Shown here piece after piece: positions 4,544 to 18,972 of a DNA stretch of 24,474 bases. The translations under genes were made by a program, and so were the position numbers. The notes under the pieces are model-generated. The model saw nothing but the letters and a program-made list of their open reading frames with translations, was not told where the DNA came from and ran no database searches. Within the stretch, counting starts at the first letter, position 1; every line of letters starts with the position of its first letter. Source of the DNA: a virus. The stretch is from IMG/VR virus record IMGVR_UViG_3300010373_000135, positions 1-24,474 of that record; one strand, 5' to 3'.

Positions 4544-5353
4544 TCAGCTCCCTGCGATTCCAAGGTTATAGTCGCTACCGGATCCATAGGTCGAAGATCC
4601 GAGCTCCGGCATGGTGATCTGTCCCGACCCGTAGTTATTTGAAGGTGCGGCCATGTATCCGCTATTCATCGGCATAGAGCCGTAGTTATTCATGTTGTTG
4701 TTGTAGGCGCTCAGCATTTGTTGCTGCATGAGATAGTTACCCATGCTCCCGCCGAGGTTGCTGGTTCCCCCTCCGACAATGTTTCCTTGCGCGATTTGAG
4801 ATGCCGCTGCGGCATTTCCAGCACCGATGGTGTTCGCGCTGATGTTGTTTGCCGTATTCATTCCCACTTGAGCGGCCTGACCGTTTGCGGTCTGTCCGAT
4901 CTGAGCTTGAGAGGCAAGTCTATTAAACCGCTGAGTTTGGTCATTATTGAATCGGTTGTAGGCGTTCTGATATTCGTTCGATGCCATTCCCTGCGTATAG
5001 TTGGCCATGTCCTTCATCATGCCGCCGCTTGCGAGTCCTCCTCGAGCCGCAGCGGATCGTTCAATGGCTTGCTGGCCCTGCTGAAGATCGAATTGATATC
5101 CAGGGTCTTGCTGAAAGTCAGACATATTGAATGTCTGCTGAAAATACGGGTCAGCCATCTCAGAGAGAGCTCTCTGACCGGCGAATCTCCATGGCGCCTG
5201 GGCGGACATCTGCTCATTGAATTCATTCGTTTGGGTTTGATTCGCGCTCTGAGCCGCCTGTTGCTGAGCGTCGTTCGCGTTGCTTGAATTGATGTAACTG
5301 ATGGTCCCGCCAATGATTGCGGCACCTGCAATTGCTGTCGCTACGCCGGACAT
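4544..5353 (-). CDS. gp7-like DNA transfer (ejection) protein
   Basis: This is a 269-aa protein. The N-terminus has a short hydrophobic segment (VATAIAGAAIIGGTISYI, residues 4-21). The core DPGYQFDLQQGQQAIERSAA then GGLASGGMMKDMANYTQGMA, NEYQNAYNRFNND and FNRLASQAQIGQTA is a pattern I recognise from phage proteins annotated as DNA transfer protein p7. These are packaged in the capsid and ejected with the genome. The C-terminal third is Asn/Gly/Met/Ser-rich and low in complexity. A G-run (GGGGGGG) upstream may serve as the RBS, and the start overlaps the cupin-SET stop by 13 bases. P22 gp7 is of similar size. Confidence 0.8.
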   Translation of the reverse strand: MSGVATAIAGAAIIGGTISYINSSNANDAQQQAAQSANQTQTNEFNEQMSAQAPWRFAGQRALSEMADPYFQQTFNMSDFQQDPGYQFDLQQGQQAIERSAAARGGLASGGMMKDMANYTQGMASNEYQNAYNRFNNDQTQRFNRLASQAQIGQTANGQAAQVGMNTANNISANTIGAGNAAAASQIAQGNIVGGGTSNLGGSMGNYLMQQQMLSAYNNNMNNYGSMPMNSGYMAAPSNNYGSGQITMPELGSSTYGSGSDYNLGIAGS

Positions 5354-6240
5354 GGTATTGCCCCCCCGATCGTTTGCGCGCTGGCAAAGGTTAGGTAGTA
5401 ATCCGTGGTGATCTCTTCTCCGTCTCCGATGTCTTTGGAGGCGACGAGGTAAACACTTCCGTTTTCAATCGTGATCATTTCGGCATTCGGGTCTGCGGCG
5501 TGATTGCAGTATCTTCCGGCAGGCGTTCTCATTCCTTGGACCCTAGCGGGAGCAATGACTTCCCCGCGTTTAAACCCGCATGCTGAAAACACGCCTTTTC
5601 CATGGATCGGTGATTCTTTGATTTCGACTGAAACAGGCCAAGGAAACAGGATTTGATCGGAAGCGTTCTCGGATACCGATTTCATTTCATCGGCCGTAGT
5701 GCCGGTGTGAAAGAGAACGTCCTCGATCGTTCGCTTCGAAGAGAGATATCCGTCTTTTGAGCGTCCCTGCCAGGTGATGACATCTGGATCTGGTTGACGA
5801 GACCCGGATTGAGGAACGCCGTCGAAGGTCTCGGAAAAAAGCATTTCTTCTAGCTTATCGATGTCTCGCTCATTCGCAGGATTGGCGTGAACCGTAATCC
5901 AGACAGTGTCCTCATGCGCGTATCCTGCTCGCTTTAGACCCGGAAACGACCTAATTACTGTCGGTGCTCCGACCTTTTTCAGTCCATCTTCTGTCATGAC
6001 GGAAATGAGTCCTGAGCTGATGACATTGAGATATTCGGTCTTCTGAATTTTTCCGACGAGTGTCGTGTTTTTTGGAATGAAAAGTTCACGAATATAAACA
6101 TCCGGAGCGAACCGGTGCGTCGTCTTGATCTGAACCTGACGATCTGGCATCGAATTCATCACGCGCTCGAGCTGGATGATCTTTCCTCTGAGCTCTGACT
6201 GCGCGCCGTTTTGAGTGGTTGCGAGTTCGTTAAGACTCAT
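5341..6240 (-). CDS. Cupin-like domain fused to a SET-domain lysine methyltransferase
   Basis: This is a 299-aa protein. Residues about 40-120 form a small beta-rich cupin-like domain (HRFAPDVYIRELFIPKNT, VGKIQKTEYLNVISSGLISV, GYAHEDTVWITVHA) of a kind frequent in phage structural regions. Residues about 203-285 carry SET motifs in order: SPIHGKGVFSACGFKRGEVI (substrate and cofactor edge), RYCNHAADPNAE (the N-H-x-x-x-P-N cofactor loop) and GEEITTDY (the catalytic-tyrosine end). SET proteins transfer methyl from S-adenosylmethionine to lysine. AGAAGGAAA precedes the ATG at 6240, which overlaps the previous stop; a 27-residue longer form is possible. No post-SET cysteines are seen. It sits between head-tail joining proteins and ejection proteins, so its target may be a virion or host protein. 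The target is unknown. Confidence 0.8.
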   Translation of the reverse strand: MSLNELATTQNGAQSELRGKIIQLERVMNSMPDRQVQIKTTHRFAPDVYIRELFIPKNTTLVGKIQKTEYLNVISSGLISVMTEDGLKKVGAPTVIRSFPGLKRAGYAHEDTVWITVHANPANERDIDKLEEMLFSETFDGVPQSGSRQPDPDVITWQGRSKDGYLSSKRTIEDVLFHTGTTADEMKSVSENASDQILFPWPVSVEIKESPIHGKGVFSACGFKRGEVIAPARVQGMRTPAGRYCNHAADPNAEMITIENGSVYLVASKDIGDGEEITTDYYLTFASAQTIGGAIPCPA

Positions 6241-6560
6241 GGATTTCCTTCTACTTTCACAAGGATCGATGATGCCGTTCCAAGGCTCAGCGAAATCACG
6301 TTGATTCGTCTGAATCTGCACGGGAAAAAGCCTGCTCCGGTTGATTCAATCAATCCGTTGCCAGGATTCGTATTTGTATGAGTCAGGATCGGCGTCCAAC
6401 TTTCGGTGGAATTACCGGTTAGCGATCCCTCGAGATTAACCGTCCAAGTGGCGCCCGATCCTGCCGGAGCGTCCACCTCTAGAGAAAACGAAGACAGAAG
6501 TGAGCCATCACCGATGAATGGACCCGGCCCTGTCGCTGAAAAGTTTTGTGGTTCGATCAT
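6237..6560 (-). CDS. Small beta-rich virion-region protein
   Basis: This is a 107-aa protein starting MIEPQNFSATGPGPFIG. A GGAGG lies about 6 bases before the ATG, which overlaps the upstream stop (ATGA). The sequence alternates polar and hydrophobic residues (FSLEVDAPAGSGATWTVNLE, SWTPILTHTNTNPGNGL, FFPCRFRRINVISLSLGTAS), suggesting a single beta-sandwich of the type found in small head or tail decoration proteins. Many phages carry similar short proteins with a WTVxLEGSLDG-like strand. I do not assign a named family. It is translationally coupled to the cupin-SET gene that follows. Confidence 0.7.
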   Translation of the reverse strand: MIEPQNFSATGPGPFIGDGSLLSSFSLEVDAPAGSGATWTVNLEGSLTGNSTESWTPILTHTNTNPGNGLIESTGAGFFPCRFRRINVISLSLGTASSILVKVEGNP

Positions 6561-11671: not shown

Positions 11672-12664
11672 CCTCCGTTTATTTTTGAGCTCTTCCTCGC
11701 GTTGGCGCTTGTAGGCCTGGAAGTCGGTTCGGGCGAGTTCGTCCAAAGACTTCTGGACTACGGGTCCTTTTCCGCCTCCTACCGGCGCAAGCGGCTTCGG
11801 GGCTGAGCTTGTTTTTTTGGTTTCTGTTTTCGGCGCAGAGGCTTTAGAGGCGATTCGAGCTTCGAGCTTTCCCATTTCACGGGCAGCATCGATCGGAGAG
11901 AGGCGGCAAATGCGTTCGGCCTCCTTCGGATTCTTTGCTAGCTCGTAAAGGAGTTCAGGACCGTTTTCAGACTTGACGAGAACACTTTCGACGGCGGCCG
12001 AGATACGGATGTTTGACACGTTCTCAAGCACTTCGTCGAAATCTTCGGTCTTAGCCTTGAAGGAGTTCAGCCGTTCTTGATAGGTCTGTACCAGCTTTGC
12101 CTGCTCGTCCCTGATTCTCGATTGCTCGAGTTTCTGGTCTCGTTCCTTGAGTTTCTGCTCGGTCTTCCAATCCGCCAAAGCCTCGACGTACTCTGCGTGC
12201 GTGTCGAACTTTGCTGGATCGGGTTTTCCTTCAGAAGTGGCAGTCTTGGCTTCGACTTGGGTCTCTGGTTTGGTCGCGCTAGCGCCTTTAAGCGCCTGCT
12301 GCTTCCAATACTCGATTTCCTGCTGAGCCAAAGTGTTTCTCTGATTCAGCTTGTCGATGCGTCGCTGGAAACCGCTCTTTTTCTTTCCCGGCTTTTCTTC
12401 CTTCGTTCCTTCCGTGGTTTCGGCTCCCTCACTGGCTTCCTCTCCAGCTTGGGCTTCCTGTTCCTCGTGGGATTCTTCGCCTTGGGTTTCCTCTGTTTCT
12501 GCGGTTTCCGAGGTCGCAGACAGTTCTTGCTCAGGGGCGGTTGCCTCCGGCGCGGATCCTCCAGCCGATGCCGCGGCTTTCTCGGGGACCTGTTCCGCGG
12601 GCTTCGGTGCCTCAGGTGCAGGTTGAGTGGGCGTTGGATCATTCGATTGGACGGTGATTGTCAT
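11663..12664 (-). CDS. Scaffolding protein
   Basis: This is a 333-aa protein with strong charge asymmetry and little hydrophobic core. Residues 1-95 are Pro/Ala/Glu-rich and very acidic (TAEETQGEESHEEQEAQAG), about 95-250 are helical and Lys/Glu-rich (KKKSGFQRRIDKLNQRNTLA, DWKTEQKLKERDQKLEQSRI), and the C-terminus is basic (YKRQREEELKNKRRRA). P22 scaffold (gp8, 303 aa) is likewise extended, helical and ends in a basic coat-binding hairpin. It lies between portal and coat, the scaffold slot, and its ATG overlaps the portal stop (ATGA). Sequence identity to known scaffolds cannot be judged by eye, so the call rests on composition and position. Confidence 0.85.
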   Translation of the reverse strand: MTITVQSNDPTPTQPAPEAPKPAEQVPEKAAASAGGSAPEATAPEQELSATSETAETEETQGEESHEEQEAQAGEEASEGAETTEGTKEEKPGKKKSGFQRRIDKLNQRNTLAQQEIEYWKQQALKGASATKPETQVEAKTATSEGKPDPAKFDTHAEYVEALADWKTEQKLKERDQKLEQSRIRDEQAKLVQTYQERLNSFKAKTEDFDEVLENVSNIRISAAVESVLVKSENGPELLYELAKNPKEAERICRLSPIDAAREMGKLEARIASKASAPKTETKKTSSAPKPLAPVGGGKGPVVQKSLDELARTDFQAYKRQREEELKNKRRRA

Positions 12665-14901
12665 GGATTTTCTCCAGGGGTTTGACCCGGTGAAGACCCA
12701 CCGGTAGGGCCGCTCCCGATGTGACCGACACCAGCGTAATTTCCGCCATCGGCTCCTTCGGGATTGAAATCTTGGGGAGCACCGATCGGTTGACCGATGC
12801 CAAGAAGCTTCTCTCGCTGCATAAGTTCTTTGACTTGCGACTCGAGAAGCTTGATTGAGGATTGGGAGCCGAGCTTCGCGAGATTGATCTCGATGTCGGC
12901 TTGGATTTTGGCCATTTCAACGCGTTCGCGATGCTCAAGATCGAGCTTTTTCGTCTCGATGACTTTAGTAGTCTCGTTGAGCTCGTCGGTGAGCTTCTTG
13001 ATGAGCATTTGGGCTTGAGCCATCTGCGCTTGAACGATTGGCGGGATTTGCTTGTTCTTGGGATCGTCTTGAAGTTGAGGAGGGAGGAGTTTTCTCAGGC
13101 GATCAGCGATCTCCTGGGCGCCAGGCCAATCCATGTTTTTCGCAATGAGGTCCGAGCACGCTTGTGCGACTTGCGGGACGGCCTTTGAGAAATCAAGCAT
13201 GGACGCTGCGGCTTCTTGCCTGCGCGTCGCGTAGCTTGGGCCGGTGTCGACGACCACGTCGTAACGTCCTACAGAGAGGTCATAGAGAACCTCTTTTCCG
13301 GTATCCTCATCCTTGTAGGTCTGGTTGAGCTTGACGACTTTTTGGGTGCCGTCCTCTTTTACGATTCGTGCCGCGCGCGCACTGTCGTAAACTTTCGGAA
13401 TGATTTCTACGAGGCATCTACCGGTGTGCCTGATCGACCGCTTCATGTTGTCGAAAAAGTGGAAATTGGAGAGCTGGGTTTGGCTTGCGCGATTTTGAAT
13501 CGCTACACCGCTGACTTCGTTCGATTGCGCGCCCAGAGCTGCGTCGAAAACACCGGTTGTAGCCTTGATATCGTCTGCTGCACCGGCCGCGGCTTGAGTA
13601 ATGGCCTGGACAGCTGGCTCAACGGCTTGTCTTTCTGGGGGAGGAGCGGGCTGACCGTTTAGGCTTGTGGGCTTATATTCGAGATAAGCGTGATTTTTTC
13701 TATTCGCGCTTTCCCATTCGGATTCATGGCCTTCGAACTGGCCTTCAGCCCCGATGAAAGGTGCCCTAGGAGCAAGCGCAATAGCCTCGGTCGCGGCCGA
13801 TTTCCAATAATTGAGCATCCGCTGCGGATCTTTCGCGTGGCGGATGACCGATTCGACGATCTTCTTTCCATTGACGTAGAGTTCGTTTCCGTAGCAGGGG
13901 ATGATCGGTATGAATGATCCGACCCAGATCGTTCGCTCGATGATTTCAATTCCCGTGATTGTGCACCACTTGACGACAGGGATCTTTGTGTCTCGATACC
14001 TTACGACGCTCGCATCAATGCCTGCCGCTTTAGCGCTCGCCTGTCTTGCTTCGAGATCCTTGTCGAGAACTGTTTCGCCGGTCGCGAGAAGGTGAATCCT
14101 GGATGGAGTGAGTTCTTTGTACAAATACTCAGCGACTCGGCAGCTATCTGATTTCACCCAGGTCGGAACGTTGTTTCCGATTGCGCTCCAGTCGGAAGCT
14201 TGCGCAAGTTTGGTTCCCGGATAGCGTGCTTTGTATTCCTCTGGAGACAGATCTTCTACGATGAAGCCCCAATTGGCGTCAGAGCCATCTGGCTCCTGCG
14301 CGTAAGGGTCGAGAAATACTGAAAAAGGATTTCGGATTCGTTTGATGAAAATTTCTTGATCTAAACTTTCCGGATCAACGAAATCGGTGAGAAGGCGCCA
14401 ATATCCGAATCCGCCGCGAGCGGCAGATTCTCCACCAGTATCGTACGCGCTTTCTGCGTTTGAGTTGTACTCGATGTGGCGAATGATTCCCTGGATGAGC
14501 TCCGCGATTTCATCCGTGGCTTCGTCATCGACAGGCGAAACTTTGATCGCAGGCCTATTTTGGCGCTGATCATTCGTGACTTGCTGGACTTGCTGAGGAA
14601 GGCGGTTGACCGTGAGGCAGGGTCTTCGGTCGATGTCCCGCTCCTGCTGAATCTCGAGCGGCCATTGTTTACCCGAAAGGAATTCAAGATCCTCTTGCGC
14701 GGCCTTCCGCATGTCGCTTTCGGCCTCTTCGGCGAGCGCGAAGCGCGCTAGGGCGGTCTCTAGGATTTCTTCATCGGTCGCTTCGAGATTCTCGTCGGGA
14801 ATCTCTCGGCCCGAATCTGCGTCTTTGTACGCAGCAGCGCCTGCTTCGGCTTGGACATCGGCATCAAAGTCCGCGGCGGTTGAAATGGTCGAATCAGCCA
14901 C
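12661..14901 (-). CDS. Portal protein, P22-like
   Basis: This is a 746-aa protein, close to the P22 portal (725 aa). The segment DMRKAAQEDLEFLSGKQWPL then ERDIDRRPCLTVNRLPQQVQ then NDQRQNRPAIKVSPVDDEAT is diagnostic for P22-type portals. Further matches are AESAYDTGGESAARGGFGYW and the middle ATTGVFDAALGAQSNEVSGV. The C-terminal 150 residues form a long helix with QAQMAQAQMLIKKLTDELNE and a Gly/Pro tail, like the P22 barrel domain. The dodecamer forms the DNA channel and binds the terminase. The start is a GTG at 14901 with GGA a few bases upstream; no closer ATG in frame exists before residue 62. The paired CTATAG element is 25 bases upstream, suggesting its own promoter. Confidence 0.92.
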   Translation of the reverse strand: MADSTISTAADFDADVQAEAGAAAYKDADSGREIPDENLEATDEEILETALARFALAEEAESDMRKAAQEDLEFLSGKQWPLEIQQERDIDRRPCLTVNRLPQQVQQVTNDQRQNRPAIKVSPVDDEATDEIAELIQGIIRHIEYNSNAESAYDTGGESAARGGFGYWRLLTDFVDPESLDQEIFIKRIRNPFSVFLDPYAQEPDGSDANWGFIVEDLSPEEYKARYPGTKLAQASDWSAIGNNVPTWVKSDSCRVAEYLYKELTPSRIHLLATGETVLDKDLEARQASAKAAGIDASVVRYRDTKIPVVKWCTITGIEIIERTIWVGSFIPIIPCYGNELYVNGKKIVESVIRHAKDPQRMLNYWKSAATEAIALAPRAPFIGAEGQFEGHESEWESANRKNHAYLEYKPTSLNGQPAPPPERQAVEPAVQAITQAAAGAADDIKATTGVFDAALGAQSNEVSGVAIQNRASQTQLSNFHFFDNMKRSIRHTGRCLVEIIPKVYDSARAARIVKEDGTQKVVKLNQTYKDEDTGKEVLYDLSVGRYDVVVDTGPSYATRRQEAAASMLDFSKAVPQVAQACSDLIAKNMDWPGAQEIADRLRKLLPPQLQDDPKNKQIPPIVQAQMAQAQMLIKKLTDELNETTKVIETKKLDLEHRERVEMAKIQADIEINLAKLGSQSSIKLLESQVKELMQREKLLGIGQPIGAPQDFNPEGADGGNYAGVGHIGSGPTGGSSPGQTPGENP

Positions 14902-14925
14902 GATTCCATGCTGAAGCCGTGATTC

Positions 14926-14948
14926 ACTATAGGGGGGCTATAGATTAG
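14926..14948 (-). promoter_or_regulatory. Paired CTATAG element, copy A, upstream of portal
   Basis: On the plus strand it reads ACTATAG, five G, then CTATAGATTAG. The same arrangement with a different 5-base spacer occurs at 18031-18053 upstream of terS, in the same orientation relative to the late genes. CTATAG is self-complementary, and the two palindromes are 11 bases apart, one helical turn. Leftward, the second palindrome reads CTATAGT, a fair -10 (TATAGT), but no -35 is visible, so an activator or a repressor site is likely. Confidence 0.7.
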
Positions 14949-15062
14949 CTATTGTTACAGATGCCGTACCATTGAGTTGCCGCGGGTGCCTTGCACCTCG
15001 AGGTTCGGCCGAATCAATTCTTCCTTGGAAGGCCCGCGGCGCCAAATCAACCTTGAGGATTC

Positions 15063-15148
15063 GGCTCCGTAGCTCAGCGATTAGAGCGCCCGTCAAAGCC
15101 GTTCGACTCGGCGGCAGGAGGTCGCGAGTTTGAATCTCGCCGGAGCCG
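15063..15148 (+). tRNA. tRNA-like gene with abnormal anticodon domain
   Basis: This 86-base element is antisense to the late genes and ends 2 bases from the terL stop. The acceptor GGCTCCG pairs with CGGAGCC; TA joins the D stem GCTC/GAGC with loop AGCGATTA (one G short of the usual GG pair). The T arm GCGAG-TTTGAAT-CTCGC is canonical, with AGGTC as a variable region and G as discriminator; CCA is not encoded. The middle is odd: CCCGT and GCAGG form only a poor anticodon stem around a 20-base insert. That insert contains a hairpin GCCG-TTCGACT-CGGC (15098-15112), whose loop looks like a second T loop or a Ser(CGA) anticodon. The GCAGG-AGGTC side resembles tRNA-Asp. The amino acid is unresolved; it may be a degenerate or tRNA-mimic gene. 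Confidence 0.55.
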
Positions 15149-15150
15149 CC

Positions 15151-16740
15151 TTATCCCATCCAAGATCCAGAACCCCGGAATGCCTCGCGAGCGCCGCGAT
15201 TCACCTTTGGCTTTTCCTTAGGAAACTCCGCTCCGAGTGCGACATCTAGGATTCTAGCCCTGCAATCGAGCATGTCGTCGTTTACGCACACGGGGAAAGC
15301 CAAGTATTCATCGTCCGTGAAAAGCTGCACGTAATCCCGCGATCTTCCCTCATAGTCGACAAAAGACAGTCTTCGCGGAGAATAAAAGCGTCCTTGCTCG
15401 TAAACGGGGACGAGTCTTCGGATTCGGTCCTCTTTCGGCATGGCCCCGCCCAGCTCGACAATCTCAAAACGATAGTTTTCCTGCTCCATGACGTAGCGCA
15501 TGTGCTCGATATCCGCCTGAAGGCCGTAGCTCTCGTAACCCACTTTCCTGGGCTTATATTTTCGGTGAAATTCAAAGAGCTTCTTTGCGCGCTGAGTGAG
15601 GTTCAGTCGGTCTCGAATGGCATCCAGAAGGTAGTAGTTGCCGTCTGGAGCGAGACCATGAACCTCCATGACCGTGTAATCGCTCGTTACCTTTTTCTTA
15701 CTCGCGGGATCAACCAGAATGTAGACGTTGAAGCCAGAATAGTCGGGCTGGCTCTCATAAAAACGCTGCCATTCTTCCTTGAAGCTCATGGCTTTGTCTG
15801 CGACAGGATCCTGAAGCATTTGAGTACCGAAGGTGTAGGGGCCCATGTCCCTGCGCTTCTTTAGCAGGAGCTCGTCAGACAGAAGAACTGATTTTCCTTC
15901 TGGGGGCGACTTTCCATTGTCCGTCGCCTTGTGAATCCGCGGAACAACCGAATCCCTAGCGATCATCTCGCGGTACGTGTCGTTTACGTGATAGCGCGTT
16001 CCGATGTAACGCCGCTTAGTCCTGTCACCGCTCCCGAGGTTAAGCGACATTTCCCAAGCTTGTGTGGTCTTCTTGATCTGATCTGGCGTACTCACTGATT
16101 CAAGCGTCACCACGTCGTCATAAATCTGGTGAGAGAAGTGACGCGAGGTAGGTTGGCCGTCGACCAATCCCCATGCCTCAATTGTGGCCTCTTTGGGGTT
16201 TGTCTTCCTTTTCACGACAATACCCCCGTCTAGAGACCACTTCGGGGCCTCGACTTGTGGCTTCTGATAGAGAATGTCTGGGAAAAGTGATTTCAGGTAT
16301 TCGTTCTGCTCAAACTCGCGCTTGATCTGCTCGAGGAACGCTTTCGCGATCGGTCTCGTATGGCTAAAGATGCCGAAGGTCGATTCCGGATCGCACAAAA
16401 TGTCCTGGATTGTCTTTGCAAACGTGATGATCGTCGATTTGTAGTGATCGCGCGCCCAGAGATCCAAATGCCCATCGGGGCTTGATTGAACTTCTCGGCA
16501 CCTTGCGTATAACCAGTCTCGGTCAATATCGCGGCGTTTACACGCAACGGTGAGAAGAAAGAACAGATCTGTCCTGCAAAGCTTCCGCTCGGCATGGGCG
16601 TTGCCGGTCTCCATGACCATCCGATAGAAATCGTTGGCCTGCTCGCGATTCATAGCGGAGCAATCGATCTTATCCGCGAACCTTCGCCTCTCGCGCTCTT
16701 CTAGATGCGATAAAAGCTCGAGCTTCTCTTCTTTGGTCAT
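15151..16740 (-). CDS. Terminase large subunit
   Basis: This is a 529-aa protein. The ATPase part has a Walker A-like loop at about residues 96-103 (ARDHYKST, lacking the classical GxxGxGK but typical of one terminase group) and a Walker B-like QIYDDVVT at about 205-212. The nuclease part has YILVDPASKKKVTSDYTVME (D344), KVGYESYG (E403) and NDDMLDC (D488-D492), the acidic triad of RNase H-fold terminases. It packages DNA through the portal and cuts concatemers. No Shine-Dalgarno precedes the ATG, but the stop of a 29-codon ORF overlaps it (ATGA), so translation may be coupled. The gene is separated from portal by the tRNA-like element, an unusual gap. Confidence 0.92.
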   Translation of the reverse strand: MTKEEKLELLSHLEERERRRFADKIDCSAMNREQANDFYRMVMETGNAHAERKLCRTDLFFLLTVACKRRDIDRDWLYARCREVQSSPDGHLDLWARDHYKSTIITFAKTIQDILCDPESTFGIFSHTRPIAKAFLEQIKREFEQNEYLKSLFPDILYQKPQVEAPKWSLDGGIVVKRKTNPKEATIEAWGLVDGQPTSRHFSHQIYDDVVTLESVSTPDQIKKTTQAWEMSLNLGSGDRTKRRYIGTRYHVNDTYREMIARDSVVPRIHKATDNGKSPPEGKSVLLSDELLLKKRRDMGPYTFGTQMLQDPVADKAMSFKEEWQRFYESQPDYSGFNVYILVDPASKKKVTSDYTVMEVHGLAPDGNYYLLDAIRDRLNLTQRAKKLFEFHRKYKPRKVGYESYGLQADIEHMRYVMEQENYRFEIVELGGAMPKEDRIRRLVPVYEQGRFYSPRRLSFVDYEGRSRDYVQLFTDDEYLAFPVCVNDDMLDCRARILDVALGAEFPKEKPKVNRGAREAFRGSGSWMG

Positions 16741-16826
16741 GAGTCAGAAATGATGATCAGGAGGATCATCAAAATGATGAAGCTCAAGAGTCCGATCGGA
16801 TCTGGCGATGCAGCGATATCACTCAA
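16737..16826 (-). CDS. Possible 29-aa membrane peptide overlapping terL start
   Basis: A TTG at 16826, overlapping the end of the SEC-C gene, opens a frame reading MSDIAASPDPIGLLSF then IILMILLIIISDS. The hydrophobic run GLLSFIILMILLIII would form one transmembrane helix. Its TGA overlaps the terL ATG (ATGA), and terL has no RBS of its own, which argues that this frame is translated. A perfect inverted repeat GATGATC-AGGAG-GATCATC (16752-16770) lies within it. It could be a tiny holin or antiholin-like peptide or only a leader that couples terL translation. Confidence 0.4.
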   Translation of the reverse strand: MSDIAASPDPIGLLSFIILMILLIIISDS

Positions 16827-17007
16827 TGAGTCCATACAACTTCATTGTGGCAAGATGCGCGCAAATCTTTGCCAATTCATCGACGGAAATACGGTCCGAC
16901 TTTCCGCAGCAACGTTTAGCCTTTTTATGGCTCCCACACGGGCATTTGATATTTCTGTATTTTCTCAGGGGATTTAGAGCGAGTTGAGGCCGTTCCGATT
17001 GATCCAT
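16819..17007 (-). CDS. Small SEC-C motif zinc-binding protein
   Basis: This is a 62-aa protein with a complete SEC-C motif at about residues 22-35: KCPCGSHKKAKRCCGK, the CxC-x8-CC pattern first described at the C-terminus of SecA, which binds zinc. The rest is Arg/Lys-rich N-terminally and helical C-terminally (VDELAKICAHLATMKLYGL). Free-standing SEC-C domains of this size occur in phages and bacteria and are thought to mediate protein or nucleic acid contacts; the partner here is unknown. The start forms TAATG with the preceding stop, with AGGAA upstream. Confidence 0.8.
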   Translation of the reverse strand: MDQSERPQLALNPLRKYRNIKCPCGSHKKAKRCCGKSDRISVDELAKICAHLATMKLYGLIE

Positions 17008-17198
17008 TAGTGCGTTCTTCCTGTTTTCTTTGCGAAATCCTCGACAAAGGATCTGACAATGAGCCAGTAATCCCGCGTGGAAGGCACGTCGTCATATTGG
17101 GAAATGATTAGATCGATATCCCTGATCGCTCTCTTTCCGAGCCTCATCCAATAGACTGCGGCCATTTTCTGCGGGTGAAACCTCTCAGTCTTTGTCAT
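17007..17198 (-). CDS. Small hypothetical protein in packaging operon
   Basis: This is a 63-aa protein, MTKTERFHPQKMAAVYWMRL then AIRDIDLIISQYDDVPSTRD then a helical end (WLIVRSFVEDFAKKTGRTH). It is soluble-looking, with no cysteines and no signal. Start and stop overlap both neighbours (ATGA and TAATG), so it is part of the terS-to-terL transcription unit. No family is recognised. Confidence 0.65.
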   Translation of the reverse strand: MTKTERFHPQKMAAVYWMRLGKRAIRDIDLIISQYDDVPSTRDYWLIVRSFVEDFAKKTGRTH

Positions 17199-17383
17199 TT
17201 CTTTTTCGGGTGATGAAAGTGTTTCGCGTTCTCAGCGAACTGAGCGCGCTCTCGCTCGAGCGGATTCGTCGAGTGAAGCGCCTGATCAAGTTTCTTCTCA
17301 GGAATCGGATGTCCGTTCTTTACGCCGAGTTCCTTGTGGAGAGCACCTTTTTTAAGATTAGGTATCCAGAGCTTCGTTCCCAT
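17195..17383 (-). CDS. Short conserved-type phage protein (GALHKELGV motif)
   Basis: This is a 62-aa basic protein, MGTKLWIPNLKKGALHKELG then VKNGHPIPEKKLDQALHSTN and a Lys/His tail. The motif W-I-x...K-K-G-A-L-H-K-x-L-G-V then I-P-x-K-K-L and RAxxAxxxK is one I recognise from many short phage proteins of unknown function, often near head genes. The ATG at 17383 is fixed by a strong AAGGAGG six or so bases upstream; earlier in-frame starts lack an RBS. It overlaps the CsrA-like stop by 26 bases. Confidence 0.8.
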   Translation of the reverse strand: MGTKLWIPNLKKGALHKELGVKNGHPIPEKKLDQALHSTNPLERERAQFAENAKHFHHPKKK

Positions 17384-17600
17384 GGTTTCCTCCTTGAATT
17401 GTTCCATCGAGTTTTTCGCGCACGATTTCGACTGAGGCTGGAGCATCAAAGCAAATTTTTGCCCGAATAGATGGGTTTGACTCCGCGATCTTGATTTCGA
17501 CCTCTTGCCCTCCGACAGCCAGAAAGATGCGCTCGCCCTTTTTGAGAACCAAAACGAGCCTTCTGATTCGGTTCGGATCTTCTTTAGGGTTGTGGCTCAT
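17358..17600 (-). CDS. csrA-like: CsrA/RsmA-like RNA-binding translational regulator
   Basis: This is an 80-aa protein. From residue about 16 it follows the CsrA fold: LVLVLKKGERIFLAV (strands 1-2, with the G-E turn), EVEIKIAESNPSIRAKICFD (strands 3-4), then DAPASVEIVREKL, matching the CsrA end APKEVSVHREEI including the RNA-contacting Arg. CsrA dimers bind GGA in hairpin loops and block or protect Shine-Dalgarno sites. It differs from host CsrA by a 15-residue N-terminal extension and a Gly/Asn-rich tail, so it is not simply a copy. AAGGA precedes the ATG, which overlaps the terS stop (ATGA). Being second in the late operon, it could set the timing of virion protein synthesis or alter host translation. 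Family call fairly secure; targets unknown. Confidence 0.75.
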   Translation of the reverse strand: MSHNPKEDPNRIRRLVLVLKKGERIFLAVGGQEVEIKIAESNPSIRAKICFDAPASVEIVREKLDGTIQGGNHGNEALDT

Positions 17601-17995
17601 TCGGAGTCCTTCGCCATCAGCGCCTTGATTTTAGCGTCAAGCTCGTCATCGCTTAGGTCTCGCGAGCTTTTTGTCTCGATCGGTTTTCCGTTTGGTCCGG
17701 AGAGCTCATGCGCGGCCTTGTCCTTCTGATCGAGGTGCTGTTTTCCAAGCCAAATCAGAAGTGCGGGATTCCCTTTTTTCGCGGCCTGCCACTGCGCGCG
17801 GCGAAGTGCGATTTTACCGAGGCTTCGTTTTTGAGCGAAATACTCCGCAAAACTGATTCCGTGCTGTCGCTTACAGGCGCGAGCGAGAGTGTCGACGGAG
17901 ATTTCAAGAAACTCGGCGATCTCTTCCTCTAGACATTGAAGCCTGCAGAGCTTCTGTACCTGGATCCAGTCGATGACTTTCTGGGGTCTCGCCAT
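17597..17995 (-). CDS. Terminase small subunit
   Basis: This is a 132-aa protein. Residues about 8-45 form a helix-turn-helix (WIQVQKLCRLQCLEEEIAEF then ISVDTLARACKRQHG), followed by GISFAEYFAQKRSLGKIALR and RAQWQAAKKGNPALLIWLGK then QHLDQKDK, a series I recognise from small terminases. The C-terminus is acidic and charged. It recognises the packaging site and feeds DNA to the large subunit. It is first in the minus-strand late operon; the paired CTATAG element (18031-18053) lies 36 bases upstream. The CsrA-like gene follows immediately with an overlap, and terL is four genes downstream, an unusually wide separation. Confidence 0.85.
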   Translation of the reverse strand: MARPQKVIDWIQVQKLCRLQCLEEEIAEFLEISVDTLARACKRQHGISFAEYFAQKRSLGKIALRRAQWQAAKKGNPALLIWLGKQHLDQKDKAAHELSGPNGKPIETKSSRDLSDDELDAKIKALMAKDSE

Positions 17996-18030
17996 GAATC
18001 CAGCTTAAACAAGTCATTAACAATAGTACT

Positions 18031-18053
18031 ACTATAGCCACACTATAGATTAG
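18031..18053 (-). promoter_or_regulatory. Paired CTATAG element, copy B, between terS and RHH gene
   Basis: On the plus strand it reads ACTATAG, CCACA, then CTATAGATTAG, matching copy A (14926-14948) at all 18 non-spacer positions. It stands upstream of terS leftward and overlaps the -35 of the rightward promoter of the ribbon-helix-helix gene. Tandem palindromes spaced one helical turn are the usual form of ribbon-helix-helix operators, so autoregulation by the adjacent gene is a natural inference. Confidence 0.75.
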
Positions 18054-18078
18054 ACATTCTAATGCTTGCGTTTATAGT
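18051..18078 (+). promoter_or_regulatory. Sigma70-type promoter of RHH gene
   Basis: TAGACA (18051-18056), a 16-base spacer and TATAGT (18073-18078) each match the consensus at five of six positions. The expected start of transcription is about 18085, at the ATG at 18086, so the mRNA would be leaderless or nearly so. This decides the start codon. The -35 overlaps the paired CTATAG element. Confidence 0.65.
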
Positions 18079-18085
18079 GAAAATC

Positions 18086-18295
18086 ATGAACGGACGAACT
18101 CTGGATCAAATCATGGAAGGCTTCAACCCGAACGCGAGGAAGCGCCAAGAGGAAACCACTTTGACTCTGTGGGTTCCGGTCTCCCTGAAGGACCGATACA
18201 AGGCGATCCAGCGCAAGAGTGGCAGGTCTTTCTCTAAGACCCTTTGCGAGATTGTCGCGGCCGCGATCGAAGCTGCCGAATCGAAAACAGCCTAA
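18086..18295 (+). CDS. Ribbon-helix-helix type small regulator
   Basis: This is a 69-aa protein. After a polar N-terminus (MNGRTLDQIMEGFNPNARKR), residues about 23-64 fit a ribbon-helix-helix unit: a strand (TTLTLWVP), a first helix (SLKDRYKAIQRKSG) and a second (SFSKTLCEIVAAAIEAAE), the layout of Arc, MetJ and related DNA-binding dimers. The ATG at 18086 is chosen because it coincides with the expected transcription start of a good promoter; ATG 18062 and GTG 18077 lie in the promoter. The gene sits beside the paired CTATAG element that also controls terS, so it is a candidate repressor or activator of the late genes. It ends tail-to-tail with the lipoprotein gene. Confidence 0.7.
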   Translation: MNGRTLDQIMEGFNPNARKRQEETTLTLWVPVSLKDRYKAIQRKSGRSFSKTLCEIVAAAIEAAESKTA

Positions 18296-18615
18296 TGCGT
18301 CGAAATCGGGACGAGCTTCGTATGCCCGTAGTCGCGATCGCCGGGAGATAGACACATAAAATTAACTTCCGCGTGCGGGTAGCGCATAAATCCGCCGGAT
18401 TGCTCCTGGGTACTGACCACTTCGATTGTCTTCCCGTTTTTCGCGCAGTAATCGCTCGCCTCGCGGTACGCATCCGCCTTGAGCCCATTGGTCCCGACGA
18501 ACGCGGAGCCTCCCTCGCGAGTGACCATGTACGAATCTGGGCCTGTAGGGACGACCCCGGTGCTTGAGGCGCAGCCTGAAAGCGCAAGAATGGCGACGAG
18601 GATGAGTGTTCTCAT
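18292..18615 (-). CDS. Small outer-membrane lipoprotein (moron candidate)
   Basis: This is a 107-aa protein with a lipoprotein signal: MRTLILVAILALSGCASS, lipobox LSGC with Cys at residue 15 and Ala-Ser after it, favouring outer-membrane sorting. The mature part (SYMVTREGGSAFVGTNGLKA, DAYREASDYCAKNGKTIEVV, MRYPHAEVNFMCL) has two further cysteines that could form a disulfide in the periplasm and resembles small lipoproteins of Gram-negative genomes. It is a single minus-strand gene between regulators, typical of a moron expressed from the prophage. A superinfection-exclusion role, as for other phage lipoproteins, is inference. A start two codons upstream (18621) is also possible; no clear RBS is seen. 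Confidence 0.75.
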   Translation of the reverse strand: MRTLILVAILALSGCASSTGVVPTGPDSYMVTREGGSAFVGTNGLKADAYREASDYCAKNGKTIEVVSTQEQSGGFMRYPHAEVNFMCLSPGDRDYGHTKLVPISTH

Positions 18616-18652
18616 GCCCATTTTTCGGCATTCTGATCAAATAAATGAACCT

Positions 18653-18680
18653 CTAGCCAGTTAAGACTAGCCAGTTAAGA
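18653..18680. repeat. 14-bp perfect tandem duplication upstream of the lipoprotein gene
   Basis: CTAGCCAGTTAAGA occurs twice in direct succession (18653-18666 and 18667-18680), ending just before the repressor stop (18682). It lies about 40 bases upstream of the lipoprotein start. A TTAACT from this repeat with TTTGAT 17 bases away could be a weak minus-strand promoter, so the repeat may be a regulator site or a slippage product. Confidence 0.7.
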
Positions 18681-18681
18681 T

Positions 18682-18972
18682 TTAAGGCTTGGGCAAATTT
18701 TTTTTGACGAACTCGGAAAGAACTTCTAAGGCGGCCCCTGCATTCGGCGGCTTGGTCAGGTCTGGATCTAGGAACAGCTCGGTTTCGCCAATCCCAAGCT
18801 TCTGAGCAATTATCCTGCGGGTTTCTGGGCGCGGAATCTGTCCGTTCTCCAGAGCGTTATACGTGCGTAACGGAATGCCCAGCATGTCGGCCATTTCGGA
18901 CTGCGTGCTTTGACCCCTCAGTCTGCGAAGATGATAGGCAACCACTTCCTCAATAGTTCTCAATATATGCAT
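18682..18972 (-). CDS. CI-like repressor with Xre-type HTH
   Basis: This is a 96-aa protein. The helix-turn-helix spans about residues 20-70: HLRRLRGQSTQSEMADMLGI then PLRTYNALENGQIPRPETRR then IIAQKLGIGETELF. A linker and a helical tail follow (ALEVLSEFVKKNLPKP). There is no LexA-like autoprotease domain, so induction must work differently from lambda CI. It diverges from the Cro-like gene across an 85-base gap containing a long palindrome. The ATG at 18972 has AAGGA about 12 bases upstream, rather far, which suggests weak translation. Prophage maintenance is the likely job. Confidence 0.85.
   Translation of the reverse strand: MHILRTIEEVVAYHLRRLRGQSTQSEMADMLGIPLRTYNALENGQIPRPETRRIIAQKLGIGETELFLDPDLTKPPNAGAALEVLSEFVKKNLPKP

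Follow-up and report, generated by a model that had tools for sequence, protein, structure and literature searches.

A tRNA-like RNA with a replaced anticodon arm between the portal and terminase genes of a viral contig

Introduction

Phage tRNAs were proposed to evade anticodon nucleases through loop mutations (extract of PMC10264068), and other phage tRNAs evaded retron-linked defence (extract of PMC11555353). A review of non-canonical tRNAs (PMC7609411), in whose main text the word 'phage' did not occur, listed in its passages on stem length 6-bp anticodon stems for tRNA-Pyl and a mitochondrial tRNA, and longer ones, with no length given there, for tRNA-Sec-like tRNAs. tRNAOther of Bacillus cereus was reported, in the extract of PMC3399842 that describes it, as a tRNA-like RNA non-functional in translation, and aptamer-tagged tRNAs were dealt with in PMC7590224 (extract). 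Open-licence PMC papers yielded no description of phage tRNA-likes whose anticodon arm is replaced.

The window analysed here (the whole 24,474-base stretch, positions 1 to 24,474 of IMG/VR virus record IMGVR_UViG_3300010373_000135) contained one tRNA-like locus, whose RNA (hereafter the window RNA) carried no conventional U33 or anticodon. On sequence comparison, we considered it somewhat better than an even bet that this was a functional, phage-maintained, non-decoding tRNA-like RNA.

The tRNA-like RNA and its body

Position 15063-15148 (+) matched RF00005 over the full model (1-71) in cmscan (47.9 bits, E 1.5e-7; gathering score 29 bits), which fixed exactly the coordinates and strand of the gene originally predicted; it was the sole tRNA match in the window, and ARAGORN made no call there. 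The RNA belonged to RF00005 by a score above the curated threshold together with its acceptor, D, and T arms, all of them as well formed as had been claimed: besides the fully paired acceptor stem (Table 1), the D stem was paired 4/4 and the T stem 5/5 as read from the sequence. The variable loop was of a kind common to many tRNAs. CCA was not encoded at the 3′ end, the bases after 15148 being CCT. The cloverleaf-consistent fold had −35.8 kcal/mol (MFE: −36.7; without the arm: −25.3), so that the anticodon arm added about 10 kcal and the cloverleaf lay less than 1 kcal from the free optimum. With respect to covariance-model scoring, the body was a high-scoring standard fold, but the anticodon arm was nonstandard.

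The D loop AGCGATTA had A instead of G at position 19, and the T loop TTTGAAT had U instead of C at position 56. Among 672 distinct cloverleaves of the loci compared, A19 occurred with U56 in 13/16, U19 with A56 in 4/10, and G19 with C56 in 643/646; moreover, 12 of the 14 loci having D and T loops of the window type possessed an anticodon arm of normal size and were ordinary phage tRNAs. The 19-56 elbow contact of RF00005 was therefore supplied by the compensated variant A19-U56. Because A19 and U56 covaried and the same pair occurred in decoding phage tRNAs, the D-loop oddity was read as a compensated tertiary pair with the predicted elbow intact: the D loop was indeed short of one usual G, as noticed earlier, but this was no elbow defect, since A19 faced U56.

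Table 1. Coordinates of the features in the window and at the corresponding junction of two related contigs
Feature	Coordinates	Strand	Basis
tRNA-like RNA, 86 nt including discriminator G73 at 15148	15063..15148	+	RF00005, 47.9 bits; 89-nt exact match with L001
Acceptor stem 5′ strand GGCTCCG	15063..15069	+	pairs with 15141-15147, 7/7
D arm GCTC-AGCGATTA-GAGC, A19 at 15080	15072..15087	+	sequence reading; RF00005 alignment; 19-56 covariation
Replaced anticodon arm, 30 nt versus 17	15089..15118	+	RF00005 alignment; folding
T-arm-like hairpin GCCG-TTCGACT-CGGC at arm tip	15098..15112	+	10/200,000 arm shuffles; 1/121 elongated arms
Variable loop AGGTC, normal class I size (5 nt)	15119..15123	+	sequence reading; RF00005 alignment
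T arm GCGAG-TTTGAAT-CTCGC, U56 at 15131 pairing with A19	15124..15140	+	sequence; RF00005; 19-56 covariation
249-bp insert carrying the tRNA-like, candidate moron-like unit	14902..15150	+	position between portal and terL; L001 comparison
Portal protein	12661..14901	-	PHROG 156, E 5e-154
Terminase large subunit (terL)	15151..16740	-	PHROG 38, E 5e-57
Phage ABA sandwich genes at terL-portal junction	L005:3499-3978; L008:6518-6886	-, -	domain match

The replaced anticodon arm

From the D stem to the T stem, the segment after position 26 measured 35 nt compared to the usual 22, i.e., 13 nt extra. The arm was composed, in order, of CCCGTC, AAA, GCCG-TTCGACT-CGGC, and GGCAGG; a C-A mismatch interrupted its lower stem (15089-15094/15113-15118), an AAA bulge (15095-15097) and an inner hairpin came next, and it had two near-equal folds. 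The anticodon stem CCCGT/GCAGG, with its single C-A mismatch, was as poor as originally predicted. A 7-nt loop carrying U33 and an anticodon that could be read was absent, and no U33 loop arose unless a segment was excised. The locus was likewise too long for class I and had no class II fold: fewer than four of the 27-31/39-43 pairs formed in the 17-nt register (L001 copy, assigned to EXT4), and the variable loop was AGGTC.

The inserted T-arm-like hairpin noticed earlier proved real. By a criterion applied after the motif had been seen (T-loop consensus TTCRANY, G-C closed, at least three further pairs), such hairpins occurred in 10 of 200,000 shuffles of the window arm and in 0/120 other elongated arms among the matches listed. 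No antisense 12-nt match to the tRNA-like was found elsewhere in the window. With the codon-reading end swapped for a longer hairpin, the job of the RNA would probably be other than protein synthesis.

Extended-arm tRNA-likes in viral contigs and cellular genomes

Viral contigs were examined with two pattern scans for one D-arm/T-arm type, giving 114 and at least 120 stretches, and a cloverleaf filter (acceptor ≥6/7, T stem ≥4/5) was applied, with identical cloverleaves, the window copy included, counted once; at least 209 distinct cloverleaves passed. Among the matches listed, these were 44 EXT, 33 EXT4, 56 with a long variable arm, 44 unclassed, 29 normal, and 3 both. The 121 without a normal anticodon arm, among the matches listed, were taken as elongated viral cloverleaves; 38 of these had all five anticodon-stem pairs plus a 5-nt variable loop, while mismatched-partner controls gave a mean of 1.5 and a maximum of 5 in 200 rounds. 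No rates were given for the class because a single D-arm/T-arm type was scanned and the counts of the second viral scan and of the cellular scan were lower bounds.

The 38 strict viral members kept U33 in 14 and A38 in 15, whereas the cellular look-alikes, nearly all archaeal introns by record title, kept them in 66/69 and 67/69, respectively (both among the matches listed). Bacterial cases noted in the cellular EXT group, among the matches listed, were L281, L292 (two), and L330, of which L281 and L330 resembled tandem duplications; 247 Acidobacteriota genomes gave one match, the seed, itself a tandem duplication. Within the one D-arm type scanned, viral contigs appeared to contain dozens of varied tRNA-likes whose anticodon stem was paired and whose arm was replaced and predicted not to decode. 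The window RNA fitted this class in the broad sense (intact body, normal variable loop, and enlarged paired arm without U33); as EXT4, with 4/5 lower pairs, it stood outside the 38 strict members.

Of the 77 extended-arm viral loci among the matches listed, ARAGORN detected 45, and in 48 the stretch retrieved contained no further ARAGORN tRNA. No common neighbour gene was found among 90 proteins, the terminase large subunit being the most frequent with at most a few occurrences.

Three sorts of candidates were rejected as true members: (i) L125, which resembled tRNA-Lys with a duplicated 5′ piece; (ii) L021, L046, and L048, whose T arms were doubled; and (iii) L132, L151, L194, and L235, which had an anticodon-like loop (e.g., CTTCTAA) followed by an insert complementary to the loop. 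Two further observations were made on the scanned loci: a TTTGCGA/CTTGCGT-like segment was common to the extended arms of the otherwise different tRNA-likes L136, L144, L069, and L175, and phage tRNAs with normal anticodon arms (L016, L023, L030, L037, L051, L104, and others) had long variable regions with GGCGAATAG-like sequence.

The phiC31-like Streptomyces phages

phiC31 and its relatives carried an extended-arm tRNA-like between genes 13 and 14, which was absent from the listed features of the phiC31 record and called tRNA-Gly in Lilbooboo; phiBT1 had a shorter hairpin at this site. The covariation set was composed of nine sequences, namely seven phiC31-like phages plus viral contigs L111 and L226, with phiBT1, TG1, and Shawty left out. 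The arm was paired in 91.7% of cells, and its covariation was 0.347 compared to 0.146 in shuffled sets (0/500 as high) and at most 0.069 in slid controls; pairs changed on both sides were less striking, with 61/500 shuffles as high. The putative non-decoding arm of these phages thus showed compensatory base changes.

Genomic setting

The window RNA split terL from portal and was antisense to the late operon, as originally predicted, both genes lying on the opposite strand (Table 1). Among relatives, L005 and L008 had opposite-strand phage ABA sandwich genes between terL and portal (E 7.5e-14 and 1.3e-14, respectively), while L003, L004, and L006 had little or no room there by tblastn coordinates. 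These ABA sandwich genes suggested that the terL-portal junction takes opposite-strand cargo, which in the window lineage would be the tRNA-like.

A simple scan for sigma-70-type promoters over 14902-15062 passed none, and the folding energy of the whole 249-nt insert was no better than that of shuffles on either strand. At 14923-14947, TTCACTATAGGGGGGCTATAG, reminiscent of a T7-type promoter core, was partly kept in L001; the T7-promoter-like string occurred once, a chance-level frequency, and was for that reason not relied on. Just upstream of the tRNA-like, 14980-15039 presented a candidate folded element, with three short hairpins or palindromes lying inside CCGCGGG/CCCGCGG, in which TTCGGCCGAA of the window was TTGCGCGCAA in L001, both palindromic; a separate RNA was not claimed there, as two changes relative to L001 indicated opposite strands. 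Elsewhere in the window were found a CsrA-like protein gene near the small terminase gene (17358-17600, -; PF02599, E 2.6e-7; L001 copy 83% identical) and a tail-fibre-like protein gene (5341-6321, -; PHROG matches) whose product matched a SET domain at its C terminus (PF00856, E 6.6e-10).

Conservation and competing explanations

A terL scan of viral contigs recovered 14 relatives, only one of which, L001, contained the tRNA-like; the 13 others had no tRNA match. A BLASTN search of phages with the 2.8-kb region gave no match, and one of phages and plasmids with the 86-mer gave just short fragments resembling tRNA or a weak match of 71%. The conservation named as a check in the original prediction was found: when window positions 12001-18800 were aligned with L001, the longest exact run was 89 nt and spanned the tRNA-like, the second longest being 44, and it ended within a few bases of both ends of the tRNA fold. 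Identity to L001 was 82.7% for portal, 76.4% for terL, and 84.4% for the remainder of the intergenic insert, and the enlarged anticodon arm was identical as fully as the tRNA body. This pattern indicated that the tRNA-like was under selection and not decaying. Because the window and L001 were the only two known copies and were mutually identical, covariation in the arm of the window RNA itself cannot be shown.

A role of the fold in RNase P/RNase Z processing or in transcript ending, limited to cutting or terminating + strand RNA that runs counter to the late operon, was judged unlikely. It would suit the intact acceptor and T arm, the gene 13-14 junction of TG1 (L255) and Shawty (L256), which by eye seemed left with an acceptor-like stem and T arm without a D or normal anticodon arm, and the same-strand ORFs flanking both sides of 32/77 extended-arm loci among the matches listed; it left unexplained why the D arm and the new anticodon arm are fully conserved, as well as the covarying phiC31-type arm.

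The original prediction had further offered a decayed tRNA and an intron-like insert. A pseudogene, formerly a phage tRNA and now with a scrambled anticodon arm, would account for the silence of ARAGORN, the poor lower anticodon stem, and the two near-equal folds of the arm; it was contradicted by exact conservation of the RNA amid diverging flanks (76-84% identity) and by the A19-U56 compensation, and the remaining stems were all perfect, which together made it improbable. An intron-containing tRNA, from whose anticodon loop 13 nt would be removed to leave a decoding tRNA, was held to be just as improbable and was poorly supported: among 69 excisions of 12-14 nt, 12 left at least four stem pairs, and only two of these, giving one and the same product, also had U33. 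That product had four stem pairs and the anticodon CGG, and cellular extended anticodon arms were mostly archaeal introns among the matches listed; its loop CUCGGCG was unusual (C37 and G38), however, its stem had a C-A mismatch, and the viral class, among the matches listed, kept U33 and A38 far less often than cellular introns did. A freely drifting intron was also disfavoured by the full identity of the insert with L001.

That the window phage and L001 recently exchanged a single tRNA-like unit, which would yield identity without selection, was considered quite improbable: identity was total and only two copies were known, but a random exchange would not be expected to give an identical block that stopped so close to where the fold does on either side, nor an insert whose remainder was also shared, at 84.4% identity. 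An attachment-site or tRNA-dependent-lysogeny element, whose copy of a tRNA would mend or mark the host tRNA gene on integration, as phages are described to do in an extract of PMC10865867, was the most improbable, since the RNA as it stands has no decoding loop that could give it the same isotype and cannot substitute for a decoding tRNA, a 26-mer from the D half had no exact match in genome_contigs, a one-genome-per-species collection of 84,980 species, and no integrase was among the window proteins scanned (part of the ORFs of a contig that is a fragment).

Proposed role and comparison with known systems

With decay contradicted and an intron poorly supported, the tRNA mimic was favoured from among the original options as what remained, but no target, such as the processing or synthetase enzymes that it had been thought to engage, was identified. 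On the favoured reading, the window RNA would be a selected non-decoding tRNA mimic and moron-like cargo, which perhaps serves as decoy or display scaffold. On this reading of a selected mimic, the RNA would be transcribed on the + strand, host RNase P and 3′ nucleases would trim the transcript, and a host enzyme would add CCA; RNase P and the CCA enzyme would be expected to act on the acceptor/T-arm half, as in established tRNA biology. The product would fold into the L, with a long arm unable to read a codon, and it might then, less certainly, occupy a tRNA-binding protein or present its hairpin on a stable tRNA scaffold. As a first guess by analogy, it could act as a decoy, either for a host defence nuclease that attacks tRNAs or for an enzyme that modifies or charges them, a decoy role being plausible given the known phage strategies against anticodon nucleases and retron-linked defence.

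More tentatively, and with doubt outweighing confidence, phages may repeatedly have made tRNA genes into natural RNA scaffolds, keeping the body for processing, stability, and protein binding and swapping in a lineage-specific functional hairpin (decoy, aptamer, or regulator), the window RNA being a version with a T loop at both ends. If such RNAs are real and non-decoding, a part of the odd phage tRNAs now annotated or discarded would form a separate group of tRNA-mimicking RNAs; the group would include an RNA unlisted in the record of phiC31, a model phage, would bear directly on the long-standing question of why tRNA genes occur in phages, and would permit simple genetic tests in cultivable Streptomyces phages.

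Compared to the window RNA, tRNAOther differed in having a Trp anticodon, a chromosomal location, and a place within a larger RNA (extract of PMC3399842). Archaeal tRNAs with anticodon-loop introns had the same outer architecture, a 5-bp stem plus enlarged loop, but they kept U33 and A38, which the viral class, among the matches listed, mostly did not. Ordinary phage class I tRNAs (D loop of GAT-A type and T loop TTTGAAT; L379, L383, and L385) shared the acceptor, D, and T arms, the variable loop, and A19-U56, but they kept the 17-nt anticodon arm and decoding loop that the window RNA did not. The phiC31-like tRNA-likes resembled it in joining a tRNA body to a longer, apparently non-decoding, hairpin-forming anticodon arm, but their arms displayed CCGG and YGCACGG motifs with a GNRA or UUCG cap and no sequence kinship to the window arm, in which this phiC31-type motif (CCGG ... 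YGCACGG, capped inner helix) was absent, and they lay in line with the flanking genes, while the window RNA lay on the opposite strand. Engineered tRNA scaffolds, too, have a foreign hairpin placed in the tRNA body as in the window RNA, but they are man-made and not natural.
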